42,683 nucleotides of DNA from Desulfuromonas sp. GTDB taxonomy: Bacteria > Desulfobacterota > Desulfuromonadia > Desulfuromonadales > BM501. The stretch is taken from positions 16,739-59,421 of the forward strand of contig NZ_PKUB01000053.1 in the NCBI RefSeq assembly GCF_002868845.1, written 5' to 3'. Below, piece after piece: positions 258-40,983 of this stretch. The notes under the pieces were generated by a model. It had not been told where the DNA came from, did no database searches, and saw only the letters and a program-made list of their open reading frames with translations. The position numbers and the translations under genes were made by a program. Position 1 is the first letter of the stretch. Every line of letters begins with the position of its first letter.

Positions 258-2939
258 TCAATGGGTAACGACTTCAACATTATTGACCCAACGCATAGAG
301 TCGAAGGTCCTGTCAGCAAATGACGAGTGATAATCTTTCATTACCTTGCCTTTCGGTGCAATGACAGTGTCTCCAACGACCACTGAAAATGCGGGTGCCC
401 CTACCCATGTCTTATCGACAAGAACATAAGTGCATCCCCCCGCATTTATGCATTCCACAACTTTGCCTCTGAGGCTTCCGGCCTGCCAGGCCCTGGCTTT
501 GTCAGCTTTGGCTTTGGCCTTGGGAATGGGATTTACATCCGTAACCGGCCAGACATAGGCGACCTTGGCATCCAGGCTACTCTTCGGCACCCCCTTGACG
601 CTATGTTTCACCCGATACTCGTAAGCACTGAAAAATCCGGACGTCTTCTGGGTCACATCGACGGTTTCGGTGGCAAAAGGGGTCTCGTATTTGACCTTGA
701 GCGGTTTTTTCGACGAGATAAACACGGTCACAGGGTTATCGAATGCGCTGTCATAGTCGCTCTTATCATATTCGAGGTTGATCGTAACTTTCTCAATATT
801 TGCTTTGGAAAAGCGGTCGTCCCGGTCCTGGATGATCTGATTCCATCGGCGTATGAGCTGGGGCCACCACTCGCGGACCAGCTCGGTTTTCAGATAGCCG
901 TCGATCAGGGCGAGGTCGGTATTCTCCTCTTCCATAGACCGGACCAGGCCCTCGTAAAACCGCTTCGGGATCACCGTCACCGTCACCGGAACGTTCACCA
1001 GGTCGGCCGGTTCCTCTTCGCCGAGTTCAAACTGGTACTTGTGCTTGTCGCCCGGCGCCAGCACAAAGGACTGGGGGTACGAAGAGGCGCTTTTATTTGT
1101 TTTCAACTCACTGTATTGACCATCCTTATCGCTCCAGGCACCGTAACTGCCGGTGACGTATCTTGAATAAACTCCCGTCCAGTCGGACTTCATCTGGACG
1201 AGGTAATGATTTTTCGACTCGTTTTTGACTTCGTAGATCGCCTTGTACCCGTAGACGTCCTCGTCGTGGCCGCCGCTGGAAGACGAATGTTTCTGGTTGG
1301 TGCTGTAGTTGATCGCCTCGCCGTTAATCATCATGTAGTCGTTATTAAAGCTTGTGTAAGACGAGGTGGTGTAGGGGACGTAACGCTCGCCGATCTTGCC
1401 GTGTTTGATAGAGTTGCGGACGCGCAGCTGGTATTTACTCAGGGCGTGTTCGGCATGCCTTTGCTTAAACGAAGGCACATCGACCAATAAAGATAGTGGC
1501 AACCTAAGGGCTTGCCTGTAGTCAACGCCCTCAAATTGGCTGTTCAGAAAGTAGCTTTTGGCTTCATCTTTAAACTTTTTTACATGCTCAAAATTTGGCA
1601 TCTTTGTGACAGAAATAAAACCGCCACTATCTCCGGAAACGATTTTCCCTTCCCCCGTTGCTACAGACAACACACGAGGGCTAGGATTAGGATAGCTAGA
1701 TAACAGCTTCCCGCTCTTCAAATCCCAAACCTTGACTGTAGCGTCATCACCACCGGAGACAATCCGGCCCTCGGTGACGACCACCGAATTGGTATCAGCT
1801 TTATGCCCGGAAAGGGTATGCAGCAGGTTGCCGCTCTTCAGATCCCAGATCTTGATGGTAGAGTACTTACCGACGGAGACAATCTGGCCACCGCTGATGG
1901 TCACCGATTTCACCCTATACCGGTCTCCCTCAATGGTGTATAGCAGTTTGCCGCTCTTCAGGTCCCAGGTTTTAATCATGCAGCTAACACCAGTGCCGCC
2001 AACATCACCTGAAACAATCCGGCCCTCACCTATGGCCACCGTCGACACCCAGCGATGATGTCCAGAAAGGGTGTCCAGGAGTTTGCCGCTCTTCAGATCC
2101 CAAACCTTGATGGTGTCGTCATCACTGCCGGAAATGATCCGCCCCTCACCGACAGCCACCGAGTTGATATCATATTTATGCCCAGAAAGGGTATTCAAGA
2201 GCTTGCCACTTGCTAAATCCCAAACCTTAATTGTGTTATCTTCACTGCCAGAAATAATTTTTCCGTTATTAACTGCAACAGAAGTAACGCGCCTTTCATG
2301 TCCAGAAAGGGTCTTCAATAGCTTGCCACTCGCCAGCCCCCAAACCTTAATTGTGTTATCATTACTACCTGATACAATTCGTCCTTCAGCGATAGCAACG
2401 TAGCGAATACGGTCGCTGTGTGCAGGAAAATAATGTGGGATACACCCACCATAAAGGCTGGCTCCTTCAATCGCCTCACTTAAATCCGCAAACAATTCAT
2501 ATTTGAAATAGTCTTGAACCGAGACATCAAAAGGGGAGATCATCTCAATTTCAAGGGCGAAGCGGATCTGTTTCTTCTTTTCCTGCTCTTCCGGAGTCAA
2601 CCCACGCGCCTGCTTTTCAGGGGGCGCCGGCAGTTCCCACACGGCGACATCCTCTTTTGCTGGAGACGGTGCATTTTCCGTATTTTCATCGGGCCCGCCT
2701 TCCATTTCGGCGTAGGTCGAAATAGCGTCGCTTTCATATTCAATGCAAAACAGGATGGATCCGACAAGGAGCGATGGGAGCAGGAGACCATACACAATGG
2801 TCAGCTTCAGACGGCTGCGGTTTTTCTTTACAAAAAAGAGCATAACGTTTCTTGCCCCAGCCGAAAAAAGCCCGACCAGCCACAATATGCAAACAAGTCC
2901 CAGAAGTGCTGCTAACGACAAAAAAACTACCGAATCCAT
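258..2939 (-). CDS. Membrane-anchored seven-bladed WD40 protein with C-terminal NrfJ-like domain (893 aa)
   Basis: Function unknown. Two hydrophobic segments (about residues 5-26 and 48-67) flank a basic loop (KKNRSRLK). By the positive-inside rule the loop is cytoplasmic and everything after residue 68 lies outside the inner membrane. Residues about 174-447 contain seven WD40 blades of roughly 40 residues with the repeated core GRIVSGS-D-TIKVWDLKSGKLL, which is enough for one closed propeller. An unrecognised conserved region follows (about 450-810). The last 70 residues resemble the small NrfJ-type module seen in Geobacter-like genomes: GKVVECINAGGCTYVLVD, then VGDTV, then a K-YHS-F-DRTFD motif. 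The upstream paralogue lacks this module. ATG start; an AGGGAGA Shine-Dalgarno lies just upstream in a leader also present before the paralogue. It is the third gene of a minus-strand set with the lipoprotein and the first WD40 gene. Structure calls are sound; any role is guesswork. Confidence 0.85.
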   Translation of the reverse strand: MDSVVFLSLAALLGLVCILWLVGLFSAGARNVMLFFVKKNRSRLKLTIVYGLLLPSLLVGSILFCIEYESDAISTYAEMEGGPDENTENAPSPAKEDVAVWELPAPPEKQARGLTPEEQEKKKQIRFALEIEMISPFDVSVQDYFKYELFADLSEAIEGASLYGGCIPHYFPAHSDRIRYVAIAEGRIVSGSNDNTIKVWGLASGKLLKTLSGHERRVTSVAVNNGKIISGSEDNTIKVWDLASGKLLNTLSGHKYDINSVAVGEGRIISGSDDDTIKVWDLKSGKLLDTLSGHHRWVSTVAIGEGRIVSGDVGGTGVSCMIKTWDLKSGKLLYTIEGDRYRVKSVTISGGQIVSVGKYSTIKIWDLKSGNLLHTLSGHKADTNSVVVTEGRIVSGGDDATVKVWDLKSGKLLSSYPNPSPRVLSVATGEGKIVSGDSGGFISVTKMPNFEHVKKFKDEAKSYFLNSQFEGVDYRQALRLPLSLLVDVPSFKQRHAEHALSKYQLRVRNSIKHGKIGERYVPYTTSSYTSFNNDYMMINGEAINYSTNQKHSSSSGGHDEDVYGYKAIYEVKNESKNHYLVQMKSDWTGVYSRYVTGSYGAWSDKDGQYSELKTNKSASSYPQSFVLAPGDKHKYQFELGEEEPADLVNVPVTVTVIPKRFYEGLVRSMEEENTDLALIDGYLKTELVREWWPQLIRRWNQIIQDRDDRFSKANIEKVTINLEYDKSDYDSAFDNPVTVFISSKKPLKVKYETPFATETVDVTQKTSGFFSAYEYRVKHSVKGVPKSSLDAKVAYVWPVTDVNPIPKAKAKADKARAWQAGSLRGKVVECINAGGCTYVLVDKTWVGAPAFSVVVGDTVIAPKGKVMKDYHSSFADRTFDSMRWVNNVEVVTH

Positions 2940-3011
2940 CTCATTCTCCCTGAATTAGTGAGAGGCCTGTTAATCCCCCCCGACTCCCGAGCAGCACTCT
3001 TTTCGTAAGGG

Positions 3012-5432
3012 CTATTTCTCAACATGCCAGACATAGGCGACCTTGGCCTCAAGTTTTCCCTTCGGCACTCCCTTAACCTCATGTTTCACCCGATACTCGT
3101 AGGCACTGAAAAATCCGCCAGCCTTCTCTGATACGTTGACCGTTTCGTTGGCAAAGGGGGTTTCATATTTGACCTTGAGCGGTTTTTTGGACGAGATAAA
3201 CACGGTCACGGGGTTATCGAATGCGTCGTAGTAGTCATTGTCATCATATTCGAGGCTGACCGTAACGCCCTCGATATTTTCTTTGGAAAAGCGGTCGTCC
3301 CGGTCCTGGATGATCTGCGCCCTGCGGCGCTTGAGTTGCGGATGCCACTCTCGGACCAGCTCGGTTTTCAGATAGCCGTCGATCAGGGCGAGGTCGGTAT
3401 TCTCCTCTTCCATGGACCGGACCAGGCCCTCGTAAAACCGCTTCGGGATCACCGTCACCGATACCGGAACGTTCACCAGGTCGGCCGGCTCCTCTTCACC
3501 GAGTTCGAACTGATACTTGTGCTTGTCGCCCGGTGCCAGCACAAAGGACTGGGGGTACGAAGAGGCGCTTTTATTTGTTTTCAATTCCCTGTAATCACCA
3601 CTCTGCTTGCTCCAGGCACCGTAACTGCCGGTGACGTATCTTGAATAGGCTCCCGTCCAGTCGGACTTCATCTGCACGAGGTAATGATTTTTCGACTCGT
3701 TTTTGACTTCGCAGATCGCCTTGTAGCCGTAGACGTCCTCTTCGTGGCCGCCGCTGGAAGACGAATGTTTCTGGTTGGTGCTGTAGTTGATTGCCTCGCC
3801 GTTAATCATCATGTAGTCGTAATTGTGCGTTGTATAAGACGAAGTGGTATAGGGGACGTAACGCTCGCCGATCTTGCCGTGCTTGAAGGCTTGCCGGACG
3901 CGCAGCTGGTATTTTTCAAGGGCGTGTTCTGCATGCCTTTGTTTGAACGAAGGCACATCGACCAATAAATCAATGGGCAGCTCAAGGGCTTGCTTATAAG
4001 CCTCGCCCTCAAAAACGCTGCTCAAAAAGTAGTTTTCAACTTGACTTTTAAACTTTTTTACATCTTTGCCGCTTGGAATCTTTGTGACAGAAACATCACC
4101 ATTACTATGTCCTGAAACTATCTTATCGTCCGTCGTTGCCACAGATAAAACAAAAGAGCAAGGATAGCTAAACAGCAGCTTACCGGTTTTCAAATCCCAG
4201 GTCTTAATTGTTTTATCATTACTGCCTGACACAATGCGACCATCAGAAATCGCTACTGAAGTTACCCTGTTGCTATGGCCGGCTAAAGTATGCAACAATT
4301 TTCCGTCTTGAAGATCCCAAATTTTAATTGTTTGATCTTTACTACCTGATACAATTCGCCCATCAGAGATCGCTACTGAATTCACACCGTCGCCATGACC
4401 AGCCAAAGTATGCAACAGTTTTCCGCTTTGAAGATCCCAAATTTTAATCGTTTTATCATCACTACCTGAAGCGATTCGCCCTTCACCAACAGCCACCGAG
4501 TTGATAAAAATCGCCCCTCCCCACCCATTTGTACCACGATGTCCGGCAAGATCATGTAAAAGCTTGCCACTGTTCAAATCCCAAACCATAACAGTATTTC
4601 GATCACTGTCAGAGACGATTCGACCTTCACCGGTCGCTACCGTTGTCTCATCAGTAAACAGAAGGTGCTTATGCCCAGAAAGGGACTGCAAGAGCTTGCC
4701 ACTCTCTAAATCCCATATTTTGATTTTTTTATCCCAACTACCAGAAACAATTTTTCCGTCAATAATTGCAACAGCGGTAACATCCCTTTCATGCCCAGGC
4801 AGGGTATGCAAGAGCTTGCCACTCGCTAAATCCCAAATTTTAATTGTTTTGTCATCGCTACCTGATACAATCCGTCCTTCAGCGATTGCTACGGAGTTAA
4901 CATGGTCGCTGTGTGCAGAAAAAACATATGGAAAAAACCCATCATAAAGGCTGACACTTTCTATCGCCTCACTTAACTCCTCAAATAATTCATATTTGAA
5001 ATAGTCTTGAACTAGAACATCAAAAGGGGAGATTATTTCATTTCCAAGGGCATAGCTGATCTGCTTCTTCTTTTCCTGCTCTTCCGGAGTCAACCCACGC
5101 GCTTGGCTTTCAGAAGACGCCGGCAGTTCCCACACAGCGACATCCTCTTTTGCTGGAGACGGTGCATTTTCCGTATTTTCATCGGGCCCGCCTTCCATTT
5201 CAGCGTATGTCGGGATGTCGCCGCTTTCATATTCCAGGCAAAACAGGATTGATCCAACAAGGAGCGACGGGAGCAGAAGGCCATACACAATGGTCAACTT
5301 CAGACGGCTGCGGTTTTTCTTTACAAAAAAGAGCAACGCGTTTCTAAGCGCAACCGAAAAAAGCCCGACCAGCCACAATATGCAAACAAGTCCCAGAAGT
5401 GCTGCTAACGACAAAAAAACTACCGAATCCAT
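3012..5432 (-). CDS. Membrane-anchored seven-bladed WD40 protein, tandem paralogue (806 aa)
   Basis: Function unknown. Architecture matches the downstream paralogue: two membrane segments around a KKNRSRLK loop, an acidic linker, a seven-blade WD40 propeller at about residues 172-449, then a conserved C-terminal region ending YVWHVEK. It lacks the terminal NrfJ-like module. Blade length varies: blades 3 and 4 carry insertions (HKHLLFTDETTVATGEG and HRGTNGWGGAIFINSVAVGEG). The first 60 residues and the post-propeller region are nearly identical to the paralogue, while the blades differ clearly and their DNA is visibly more AT-rich (about 4100-5000). Blades within the protein are very alike (for example DLQSGKLLHTLAGHGDGVNS and DLQDGKLLHTLAGHSNRVTS), suggesting recent blade duplication or gene conversion. 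The ATG has an AGGGAGA ribosome site. It is 66 bases downstream of the lipoprotein gene and probably co-transcribed with it. Confidence 0.85.
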   Translation of the reverse strand: MDSVVFLSLAALLGLVCILWLVGLFSVALRNALLFFVKKNRSRLKLTIVYGLLLPSLLVGSILFCLEYESGDIPTYAEMEGGPDENTENAPSPAKEDVAVWELPASSESQARGLTPEEQEKKKQISYALGNEIISPFDVLVQDYFKYELFEELSEAIESVSLYDGFFPYVFSAHSDHVNSVAIAEGRIVSGSDDKTIKIWDLASGKLLHTLPGHERDVTAVAIIDGKIVSGSWDKKIKIWDLESGKLLQSLSGHKHLLFTDETTVATGEGRIVSDSDRNTVMVWDLNSGKLLHDLAGHRGTNGWGGAIFINSVAVGEGRIASGSDDKTIKIWDLQSGKLLHTLAGHGDGVNSVAISDGRIVSGSKDQTIKIWDLQDGKLLHTLAGHSNRVTSVAISDGRIVSGSNDKTIKTWDLKTGKLLFSYPCSFVLSVATTDDKIVSGHSNGDVSVTKIPSGKDVKKFKSQVENYFLSSVFEGEAYKQALELPIDLLVDVPSFKQRHAEHALEKYQLRVRQAFKHGKIGERYVPYTTSSYTTHNYDYMMINGEAINYSTNQKHSSSSGGHEEDVYGYKAICEVKNESKNHYLVQMKSDWTGAYSRYVTGSYGAWSKQSGDYRELKTNKSASSYPQSFVLAPGDKHKYQFELGEEEPADLVNVPVSVTVIPKRFYEGLVRSMEEENTDLALIDGYLKTELVREWHPQLKRRRAQIIQDRDDRFSKENIEGVTVSLEYDDNDYYDAFDNPVTVFISSKKPLKVKYETPFANETVNVSEKAGGFFSAYEYRVKHEVKGVPKGKLEAKVAYVWHVEK

Positions 5433-5463
5433 CTCATTCTCCCTGAATCAGTGAGAGGCCTGT
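3026..5463. repeat. Tandem gene duplication (pairs with about 547..2970)
   Basis: The segment holding the 806-residue WD40 gene and 31 bases of its leader (5433-5463) is repeated at about 547-2970. The leaders 2940-2970 and 5433-5463 differ at a single base. Similarity stops on one side at the shared ccagacatagg (about 548 and 3027) and on the other just past gaggcctgt. The ends of the unit are close to identical, whereas the WD40 section in the middle has diverged. Confidence 0.85.
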
Positions 5464-5498: not shown

Positions 5499-6800
5499 CT
5501 ACTCGCTGAACAGCAGCTCTTTGTATTTGGCGTTGGCCACTTTGATAAGTTCAGCCGCATCGGCGTCGTCCCTGTAGGCGCTGATGAAGGCTTCGAGGTT
5601 TACCATCGACCTTAAGGCAATCGCCGCGTCGAGCTGCGGTTTGATCTTCGCCAGTTTCTGCCGTTTGAGCTCCGCCTCTTTTTTCACCTGGGCGATGCGG
5701 CGCTTCTCGGCTTCGGCGGCACGCTGCCGCTGCTTCCGAAGCTGGATGTTCTTTGCGATCGCGGCTTCCTCCTTTTTGGCTTGCGCCAGCAGGGAGGATA
5801 GTTGATTACCGGCAGAACTTACAACACCTGACGCGGCAGGTTTCAGGTATTGCCTGCTGACCCAATACTTACCCGAATACTTTCTATTTTTCTCGGCACC
5901 TGAAAATTGCACCCATCCGCCTTTGGTTTGAAGCACATTACAGATAGTGTCTTTTTCTCCCAAGGTAAAAGCCACGCCGTGTTTTGTGCCGGGACCTTTG
6001 CGTACATTGAGTTTTGATATTGTCGGCGTAAGGCATGGGGAGGAAAAGACTTCGGAGTATTTTTCGATAAACGCTTTTAGCTCTGCAATGCTGTTTTTGT
6101 CCAAACGGTCAAAGTCGTCATCAGCAAACCCTGACAGGGATTTCAAGATGAACGGGCTGGAAGCAAGTCCTGCCGCAGGATATTTTTGAACGAACTTTTC
6201 GATGGAATCGATATCTTTCACCGCCAAGGTCAACTCTTCCAGAAGCAGGTTGTTGACATGCTGACCAACCCGGTCCACCTGATCGCTGTTTATTTTTTTA
6301 TCTGTTACCCCCGCGCGAATCATATTGTAGGTTTCAACTGGTTCAAGAATTAGCAAAGCGGCAAGGAGTGGAGAAGTGACGGTATTGGCAAATATACCCC
6401 CAGCATTCGGCGTTGTTTCACTGAACAAACTTCCCTTGGGAGTGTTGTAGCCGTAGCACGTGCTGAATTTTCCAAGAGAAGAGATGGTAATGCATTCCTT
6501 CAGAGTTGTGCTGTCGGCCTTATCAACACCTACCCGTGCCAGGGTCGAAGCATTTTTTTCGTACAGTTCTTTTAATTCTTCAGTAGACACATCACCCTTC
6601 ACATCCTGCACGGCGATCTTTCCATTTTCGATATCAATCAAAACAGAGAGTTCTCTCTGCCCCAAAACCTTCACAACGTTTTCACTGCGTGTGGATGATT
6701 TCAAATCGAGATCAATCTGCTCTGAAACAGGGGCGGCACACCCGGAAAATAAACATGCCGACACGATGCACAAAACGATGCAAAACACTTTTGTCCTCAC
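5499..6800 (-). CDS. Lipoprotein with bacterial SH3 domain and coiled coil
   Basis: Unknown exported lipoprotein of about 433 residues. The signal peptide ends in the lipobox LFSGC (Cys at about 21), with Ala-Ala at +2/+3, which predicts outer-membrane sorting if Lol rules apply. Residues about 255-325 look like an SH3b domain (KLNVRKGPGTKHGVAFTLGE, then GGWVQFSG and YWVSRQYLKP), typical of peptidoglycan or protein binding. A charged Lys/Glu/Ala-rich coiled coil follows (about 335-395), then a short helical tail ending LLFSE. Start choice: two GTG codons lie in tandem at 6803 and 6800. AAGGAGG (6812-6806) is only two bases from the first but five from the second, so 6800 is preferred. It is the first gene of a minus-strand set with the two WD40 genes, suggesting a shared envelope role. 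I see no convincing sigma-70 promoter upstream. Confidence 0.8.
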   Translation of the reverse strand: MRTKVFCIVLCIVSACLFSGCAAPVSEQIDLDLKSSTRSENVVKVLGQRELSVLIDIENGKIAVQDVKGDVSTEELKELYEKNASTLARVGVDKADSTTLKECITISSLGKFSTCYGYNTPKGSLFSETTPNAGGIFANTVTSPLLAALLILEPVETYNMIRAGVTDKKINSDQVDRVGQHVNNLLLEELTLAVKDIDSIEKFVQKYPAAGLASSPFILKSLSGFADDDFDRLDKNSIAELKAFIEKYSEVFSSPCLTPTISKLNVRKGPGTKHGVAFTLGEKDTICNVLQTKGGWVQFSGAEKNRKYSGKYWVSRQYLKPAASGVVSSAGNQLSSLLAQAKKEEAAIAKNIQLRKQRQRAAEAEKRRIAQVKKEAELKRQKLAKIKPQLDAAIALRSMVNLEAFISAYRDDADAAELIKVANAKYKELLFSE

Positions 6801-6978
6801 CACAACCTCCTTGCGTTAAGCCAACAAACCGAATTCAATACCGAACCGTCGGGACCGATATCGATCCCGGGGATATTAGATTCAAACCATTTCAGAAAGA
6901 TCTGCTTTACCCACAAGCAGTCGAAAAGACGGGAAGGCTTCACGAAGCCTTTTCCGCAAAGCCAACACTCCGCACAAT

Positions 6979-7012
6979 AAAAAAGGCCAGGGCAGCGATG
7001 CCCTGGCCTTTC
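6979..7012 (-). terminator. Rho-independent terminator after valS
   Basis: Arms 6983-6994 and 6999-7010 (AAGGCCAGGGCA and complement) enclose a four-base loop, followed on the minus strand by a run of T from the A-tract at 6978-6984. It begins about ten bases past the valS stop and insulates valS from the lipoprotein gene. Confidence 0.9.
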
Positions 7013-7020
7013 GTCCATCC

Positions 7021-9678
<2,658 letters not shown>

Positions 9679-13301: not shown

Positions 13302-13739
13302 ATGTCGACTCTACTCGAAATGACGGCCGAAATCGTTGCCGCCCACGCTTCTATTACCCCGTTGACCAAAGAAGATCTGATCGCGGAGTTGTCCGACGTC
13401 CACGAGGCACTGGTTGCTCTGGACAAAGGAGAGCATGTGGCCACCGAAGCGGCCGAAGAGGCAACCGCCGCCCCGGCCGTCTCGCTCAAGAAGGCCTTTG
13501 GCAAGGACAAGGTCATCTGCATGATCTGCGGCAAGGAGATGAAGACCCTGGCCCGCCACCTGAAGACCTCCCACGACATGAAGCCCGGCGAATACCGCAA
13601 GCGGTTCGACATCCCCCGCACCCAGCCTCTGGCTGCCCGCACCTACTCGGAGAGCCGGCGGCAGATGGCCGTGGAACGCGGCCTCGGTGAGAACCTGGCC
13701 AAAGCCCGTGCCGCCCGGGCAAAGAACAAAAAGAAATAA
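13302..13739 (+). CDS. Ros/MucR-family zinc-finger regulator, copy 1
   Basis: DNA-binding protein of 145 residues. The N-terminal 60 residues (LLEMTAEIVAAHASITPLTK, then LIAELSDVHEALVAL) match the MucR oligomerisation region. The zinc finger CMICGKEMKTLARHLKTSH has spacing C-x2-C-x9-H-x4-H at about residues 73-91. The conserved tail includes YRKRFDIPRTQPLAA and RGLGENLAKARAA, ending in a Lys run. In alphaproteobacteria this family acts as an H-NS-like global repressor of AT-rich DNA. GAGGAGG six bases before the ATG fixes the start. It is a single-gene transcript closed by a strong terminator. A close paralogue lies at 40555-40983. Confidence 0.9.
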   Translation: MSTLLEMTAEIVAAHASITPLTKEDLIAELSDVHEALVALDKGEHVATEAAEEATAAPAVSLKKAFGKDKVICMICGKEMKTLARHLKTSHDMKPGEYRKRFDIPRTQPLAARTYSESRRQMAVERGLGENLAKARAARAKNKKK

Positions 13740-40554: not shown

Positions 40555-40983
40555 ATGGCAAACCTGCTGGAAATGGCCACTGAAATCGTCGCTTCTCACG
40601 CCTCTACTTCCCCCATGAGCAAAGAGGACCTTATCGCTGAAATCAGCGAGATCTACAACGCTCTTTGCGCCATTGAGAAGGGGGAAACTCCTGTTGTGCA
40701 AGGTGTTGAAGAGGAAGCCGCTCCCGCTATCTCCAAGCGCAAGGCATTCGGCAAGAAACAGATCATCTGCATGATCTGCGGCAAGGGGATGAAGACCCTC
40801 GCCCGTCACCTCAAGACCGCACACGGCATGACCGCCAAGGAGTACCGGGCCCAGTTCGACATCCCCCGCACACAGGCCCTCGCCGCCAAGGATTACTCCG
40901 AATCCCGCAAGCAGATGGCCATCGACCGCGGCCTCGGCGAGAACCTGGCCAAGGCCCGCGCCGCCAAGGCCAAGAAGAAGTAA
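40555..40983 (+). CDS. Ros/MucR-family zinc-finger regulator, copy 2
   Basis: 142-residue DNA-binding protein closely related to the copy at 13302-13739. It has the N-terminal oligomerisation-type region (LLEMATEIVASHASTSPMSK), the zinc finger CMICGKGMKTLARHLKTAH with the same C-x2-C-x9-H-x4-H spacing, and the shared tail FDIPRTQALAAKDYSESRKQ, then RGLGENLAKARAAKAKKK. The N-terminal half differs more than the finger and tail. The ATG has AAAGGAG seven bases upstream; an in-frame upstream extension crosses the promoter and is rejected. It is a single-gene unit with a good promoter and an intrinsic terminator, placed at the edge of an AT-rich, IS-scarred patch. Confidence 0.9.
   Translation: MANLLEMATEIVASHASTSPMSKEDLIAEISEIYNALCAIEKGETPVVQGVEEEAAPAISKRKAFGKKQIICMICGKGMKTLARHLKTAHGMTAKEYRAQFDIPRTQALAAKDYSESRKQMAIDRGLGENLAKARAAKAKKK

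Follow-up and report, generated by a model that had tools for sequence, protein, structure and literature searches.

Pereira and Lupas (2022; PMC9218822) described β-propellers in which blades were amplified independently while other parts of the protein stayed conserved, including local amplification within differentiated propellers. In the near-identical Mastigocoleus paralogues from the same work, the propeller alone differs, with 6 versus 9 blades (PMC9218822). The HNWD proteins of Podospora, represented by het-e and het-d, exchange WD40 blades (PMC1805685, PMC2873952), and codons 7, 9, 25 and 27 of HET-E are under positive selection (PMC1805685). Prokaryotic highly repetitive WD40 proteins exhibit a bacterial propeller with raised internal identity (PMC5587647).

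How do the two WD40 proteins of the present locus, W1 and W2, compare with these systems? Like locally amplified β-propellers, W1 and W2 appear to combine private blade duplication in a differentiated propeller with preserved flanks, but their blade number is equal (7/7), their blades are older and their median blade identity is lower. They share WD40 blade exchange and variability at the same loop positions with the HNWD proteins but differ in having two predicted transmembrane helices, no near-identical repeats, an equal blade number and no shown positive selection. Compared with the prokaryotic highly repetitive WD40 proteins, W1 and W2 have a bacterial propeller and raised internal identity in common but add a membrane anchor and an orphan C-terminal region. 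The evolutionary process is already known for propellers, and the new element is its setting on an otherwise unique protein in apparently inserted DNA. The pair provides a clear natural mosaic within a closed propeller fold, in which outer blades are inherited and inner blades seem to be re-made in two copies that stand side by side. We propose, with a probability of approximately 60%, that W1 and W2 are membrane-anchored tandem duplicates whose propellers were altered by blade-level recombination after the duplication, yielding copies with different faces and partners.

The window, that is, the whole stretch of 42,683 nucleotides that was analyzed, covers positions 16,739-59,421 of the forward strand of contig NZ_PKUB01000053.1 from Desulfuromonas sp. 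(GCF_002868845.1). An SH3-type lipoprotein gene, W1 and W2 follow each other in this order of transcription on the minus strand with intergenic gaps of 66 and 72 bases. Both WD40 genes pass the PF00400 cut-off of 27 bits (104 and 126 bits), and a genome-wide search places all WD40 matches of the genome in W1 and W2. The sequence-only reading had recognized tandem WD40 paralogues, and we confirm two minus-strand genes with seven blades each in the sequence register. It had assigned them to 547-5463; the leader match stops exactly at 5463, but the outer gene ends lie at 258 and 5432, and so the W2 tail falls outside that interval. In both proteins, two predicted N-terminal transmembrane helices are followed by a WD40 propeller of seven blades and by a C-terminal orphan region. 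The features are as follows (RY, purine/pyrimidine coding).

258-2939, minus strand: W2, tandem WD40 gene 2 (893 aa)
261-515, minus strand: tail present in W2 only, a homologue of the N-terminal domain of an order-wide lipoprotein
540-1589, minus strand: W2 orphan C-terminal region, 84-90% amino acid identity to W1 past residue 500
1635-2177, minus strand: W2 counterpart of the divergent W1 segment (about residues 255-435)
1728-1847, minus strand: W2 blade 6, closest to blade 3 of the same protein; AU test rejects orthology with the sixth blade of W1
2103-2222, minus strand: W2 blade 3, with W2 blade 6 as its closest blade (75% nucleotide, 92% RY identity)
2940-2970, minus strand: W2 leader, a copy of the W1 leader (upstream comparison)
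3012-5432, minus strand: W1, tandem WD40 gene 1 (806 aa)
3015-4067, minus strand: W1 orphan C-terminal region (residues 456-806), no family and no relatives in the searches given below
4068-4931, minus strand: W1 seven-bladed WD40 propeller (residues 168-455; AF2 and Foldseek)
4113-4670, minus strand: W1 segment with its own genealogy (residues 255-440; likelihood segmentation and permutation scan)
4200-4439, minus strand: W1 blades 5 and 6, putative private duplicate pair (82% nucleotide, 95% RY identity)
5235-5423, minus strand: W1 hydrophobic helix pair (near residues 4-26 and 45-66; Kyte-Doolittle scan)
5433-5463, minus strand: W1 leader, common with W2 (31 bp, including the ribosome-binding region)
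5499-6803, minus strand: SH3-type putative lipoprotein gene upstream of W1 (434 aa; LFSGC lipobox)
6973-7272, minus strand: 3' end of valS with its terminator; second copy at G000:C53:14940-15233, beyond the window

As the sequence-only reading anticipated, divergence is not uniform when identity and dN/dS are followed along W1 and W2. In the W1-W2 codon alignment, the flanks and the propeller differ in nucleotide identity (0.88 versus 0.685), amino acid identity (0.85 versus 0.62) and dS (0.29 versus 1.25), and the contrast in synonymous identity gives a Fisher p of 2e-14. Likelihood segmentation of synonymous identity places segment edges at W1 residues 255 and 440. Synonymous identity is 0.43 over this segment, compared with ~0.81-0.87 across the flanks, the first two blades and the last part of blade 7, and the observed contrast was reached in 0/300 permutations of a permutation scan. 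The dS value is 0.24 in the N-terminal flank, increases through blades 1-3 (0.39, 0.67 and 0.87) to 1.9 in blade 4, is saturated in blades 5 and 6, and returns to 0.66 in blade 7 and 0.25-0.30 in the C-terminal region. The dN/dS ratio is about 0.2-0.5 and is below 1 in every region with computable dS. Given that both dS and dN are higher in the propeller while dN/dS stays below 1, the contrast reflects different genealogies rather than fast protein evolution. The central 4.5 blades have a genealogy that is separate from that of the rest of W1 and W2.

The boundaries of likeness are less simple than had been expected from near-identical flanks around seven differing, AT-rich blades. The near-identity of the leader is confirmed, with one difference in the 31 bp before the ATG and no similarity further upstream. 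The first 60 residues and the post-propeller region are similar, but their near-identity was overstated, since amino acid identity is 86% in the N-terminal flank, 67% over residues 456-500 and 84-90% in the C-terminal region. The blades differ over W1 residues 255-440, from the end of blade 3 to blade 7, but blades 1-2 diverge less (dS 0.39-0.67). AT richness applies to the W1 propeller (GC 0.43, GC3 0.35) but hardly to that of W2 (GC 0.49; 0.54 in blades 4-6), and the whole three-gene cassette is AT-rich.

The mosaic is resolved further at the level of single blades. In blade trees based on 120 nucleotides per blade and two genes only, blades 1, 2 and 7 pair between W1 and W2 (supports 98/92, 99/98 and 100/99), and blades 5 and 6 of W1 form a clade with a support of 96/90. 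Among several AU tests that were run, one rejects that the two sixth blades are orthologous (p = 0.0014), and another does so marginally for the two fifth blades (p = 0.037). For blades 3 and 4, positional pairing is neither supported nor rejected by the tree and the AU tests. RY coding was used to lessen the strong GC3 difference between W1 and W2 in blades 4-6 (0.34 in W1 versus 0.64 in W2). RY identity is 95% for W1 blades 5 and 6 and 92% for W2 blades 3 and 6, compared with 79% between the fifth blades of W1 and W2 and 83% between their sixth blades. Composition bias is ruled out as the cause of the W1 blade 5-blade 6 grouping, which holds under RY coding. W2 blade 6 is 75% identical to W2 blade 3 in nucleotides and 72% in amino acids. 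These two blades do not form a clade in the tree, where W2 blade 6 groups weakly with blade 5, and their grouping is not rejected (p = 0.196). Private loop insertions are located in W1 blade 3 (4 aa), W1 blade 4 (8 aa) and W2 blade 4 (5 aa). Private blade duplication or replacement after gene duplication is supported by these comparisons. The blade shuffling suspected in the sequence-only reading is borne out by the W1 clade and by the rejected orthologies, both of which are robust to RY coding.

The tandem duplication, the mosaic genealogy, the blade pairings and the bracketing valS repeat are directly shown by the data. We propose that the duplicated gene encoded an inner membrane-anchored WD40 propeller protein. 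In W1, one of blades 5 and 6 would then have been copied onto the other, in either direction, and in W2, blades 3 and 6 would constitute a related pair. As a result, the central 4.5 blades of W1 and W2 would no longer trace back, blade for blade, to one shared ancestral set. Blades 1, 2 and 7, the membrane anchor and the C-terminal region would have diverged ordinarily or been held alike by gene conversion. Gene conversion could also be assigned the leading role: W1 and W2 would be an old tandem duplicate with flanks re-matched by conversion, and the propeller centers would be the old unconverted part, unshuffled. Such a history accommodates the patchy, conversion tract-like similarity of the flanks, which show zero synonymous differences over residues 2-50 and a synonymous identity of 0.81 over residues 51-254, as well as the high dS of the internal blade pairs, which suggests old blades. 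However, we consider it possible but on balance unlikely, given that positional orthology is rejected for blade 6 and marginally for blade 5 and that W1 blades 5 and 6 are nearest to each other in RY coding too. This blade evidence speaks for private copying of blades in W1 and in W2 rather than for flank conversion alone. Flank conversion may still be additional and may have contributed to the lack of synonymous change in the first 50 codons.

Alternatively, a WD40 gene of unrelated descent or horizontal origin might have recombined into the center of one propeller and displaced it. The GC3 contrast in blades 4-6 and the fairly sharp segment edges are consistent with such a replacement. We regard an outside donor as very improbable, however, because the genome contains no other WD40 protein that could serve as a third donor, the best outside matches are 42-49% identical compared with the 72% amino acid identity between W2 blades 6 and 3, and the blades keep the local consensus GRIVSGS..IKxWDLxSGKLL.

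The blades within each protein are less alike than had been claimed. Median amino acid identity, computed over the five full 40-residue blades of each protein, is 62.5% in W1 and 55% in W2, relative to the threshold of >60% for a highly repetitive propeller. Synonymous sites are mostly saturated in within-protein blade pairs, with a lowest dS of 0.53-0.97. Since most internal pairs are saturated, the blades are mostly alike by motif constraint and not by recent homogenization, and concerted evolution finds no backing here. The likeness to fungal NLR-type proteins fails on both domain architecture and blade identity. A NACHT or STAND NTPase is absent among the Pfam matches listed for W1 and W2 (best 25 of 36 and 42) and from separate searches of the N- and C-terminal parts. 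A defense-system assignment was also discarded, as PADLOC matched through the WD40 repeats only.

Does selection on a recognition surface explain the difference between W1 and W2? Variation within the 40-residue unit is among the highest at positions 16, 17, 18, 34 and 36, of which 16, 18, 34 and 36 correspond to HET-E codons 7, 9, 25 and 27 in our own motif alignment. Pooled pN/pS at these four positions is 0.6-1.0, compared with 0.3-0.4 elsewhere, and exceeds 1 in W1 blade 5 versus blade 6 only, where a value of 2.0 is based on about 2 synonymous sites. The pattern appears to be relaxed or weakly diversifying, and a recognition surface is only hinted at. For the recognition surface proposed earlier, the variable positions coincide with the HET-E sites, but the pooled ratio does not exceed 1. 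Diversifying positive selection of the HNWD type as the driver of the W1-W2 difference could draw on this coincidence and on the value of 2.0, but we judge it quite unlikely. In addition to the modest pooled ratio and the few sites behind that value, gene-wide dN/dS is well below 1, loop positions are variable in any WD40 family and synonymous divergence is as strong as protein divergence.

The membrane scaffold posited for both proteins is supported by two hydrophobic helices predicted at the N-terminus. An AF2 model of W1 from a two-row alignment contains seven blades with pLDDT values of about 80-93 over most blades, and Foldseek matches of the W1 propeller are WD40 propellers, including prokaryotic 5yzv_B (TMt 0.88). 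The rest of the protein is modeled poorly, with helices at residues 2-39 and 45-66 of low to moderate confidence. The N-terminus displays a basic loop between the two hydrophobic helices, here delimited at residues 1-37 and 44-68, and acidic residues after the second. By the positive-inside rule, the helices and charges fit an N-out/C-out topology, and the lipoprotein-like tail of W2 fits an extracytoplasmic C-terminus. Both protein ends and the propeller probably face the periplasm from an inner membrane anchor. W1 and W2 would share one type of anchor but expose distinct propeller faces, each with its own protein partners, and the propeller pair would act together with the SH3 lipoprotein encoded upstream. 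Their most likely role would be to bind proteins at the membrane through two unlike propeller faces, in concert with this lipoprotein. The lipoprotein has a weak SH3_3 domain (Pfam E 6.6e-6, just below the cut-off) and a coiled-coil-like C-terminal part, and the 58 genomes of the order search yielded SH3-sized matches only and no full-length relative.

The C-terminal region of W1 and W2 has no Pfam or PHROG family and only an insignificant NCBIfam match. Its AF2 pLDDT is below 50 within W1 and 41 when modeled alone. No relatives of the region were found in overlapping sets of 395 phylum, 277 class and 136 order genomes, which included no other genome of the host's genus or family, or in a plasmid collection. 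Two genome-contig scans and one viral scan by strict peptide patterns, which detect close relatives only, returned nothing. A 17-bit match with an internal stop in genome G606 was taken as chance, and the PDB matches are antibody chains with insignificant scores (E 0.034 or worse). The other order-search matches are mostly open frames of 370-410 aa with 24-28% identity and were taken as other β-propellers, presumably BamB/PQQ-like, rather than as relatives of the scaffold. The W2 tail, for which no significant Pfam or NCBIfam model was obtained, is homologous to the N-terminal domain of an order-wide lipoprotein, with 46-54% identity in the best matches. The domain is present in 18/20 order genomes searched, including the host's own, within open frames of 226-330 aa. 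The own-genome copy (L028 1384-2154) begins with a lipoprotein signal, and its 77-residue domain is 46% identical to the tail. We take this lipoprotein to be NrfJ-like. It shares the 77-residue domain with W2, but in W2 the domain is fused behind a WD40 protein.

The three genes differ in composition from their surroundings, with a GC content of 0.47-0.50 in the cassette of lipoprotein, W1 and W2 versus 0.62-0.66 in the neighboring genes. Furthermore, a direct repeat of the valS 3' end flanks the cassette on both sides. The intact copy lies at 6973-7272, and a second copy of the 3' end and terminator (301 bp, 77% nucleotide identity) is found outside the window at G000:C53:14940-15233 (L017), beyond W2 and a UbiA-like gene, where it is decayed by in-frame stops. 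The genes recognized between the repeats are the SH3 lipoprotein, W1, W2 and the UbiA-like gene, with no integrase among them. In three relatives, ptsP is also located downstream of valS with unrelated genes between. Given its low GC and its position between intact and decayed valS 3' ends, the cassette looks like an insertion, into a variable spot, that duplicated the 3' end of valS. Such a setting and the orphan C-terminal region make a lineage-specific surface system possible, in which a recognition or defense role is conjectural. On a bolder reading, which we hold to be a long shot, the cassette would carry a two-gene system in which a fixed novel anchor and C-terminal region bear periplasmic propellers that exchange central blades for new specificities. 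Such a system would be an extracytoplasmic counterpart of blade-shuffling recognition proteins.

Several minor observations accompany this analysis. The valS-ptsP intervals of the relatives (L053, L054 and L055), read by eye from translations, contain electron-transfer flavoprotein-like, GGDEF/EAL-like and methyltransferase-like genes. Within the window, a direct repeat of ~420 bp with 71% identity connects 13311-13729 and 40564-40979 and probably represents two related small genes. One relative (L026:3201-7469, minus strand) has a gene for a 1422 aa protein that seems to start with a TIR-like part and contains NTPase motifs and numerous WD40 blades. A WD40 gene on an Arcobacter plasmid (L031:5001-6074) adjoins AAA ATPase and SbcCD-like genes; its annotated start falls within the propeller match and a further gene has been called antisense to it, which is probably misannotation. 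Finally, a Haliscomenobacter plasmid (L032) carries two adjacent WD40 genes, which could serve for comparison with other propeller paralogues in tandem.
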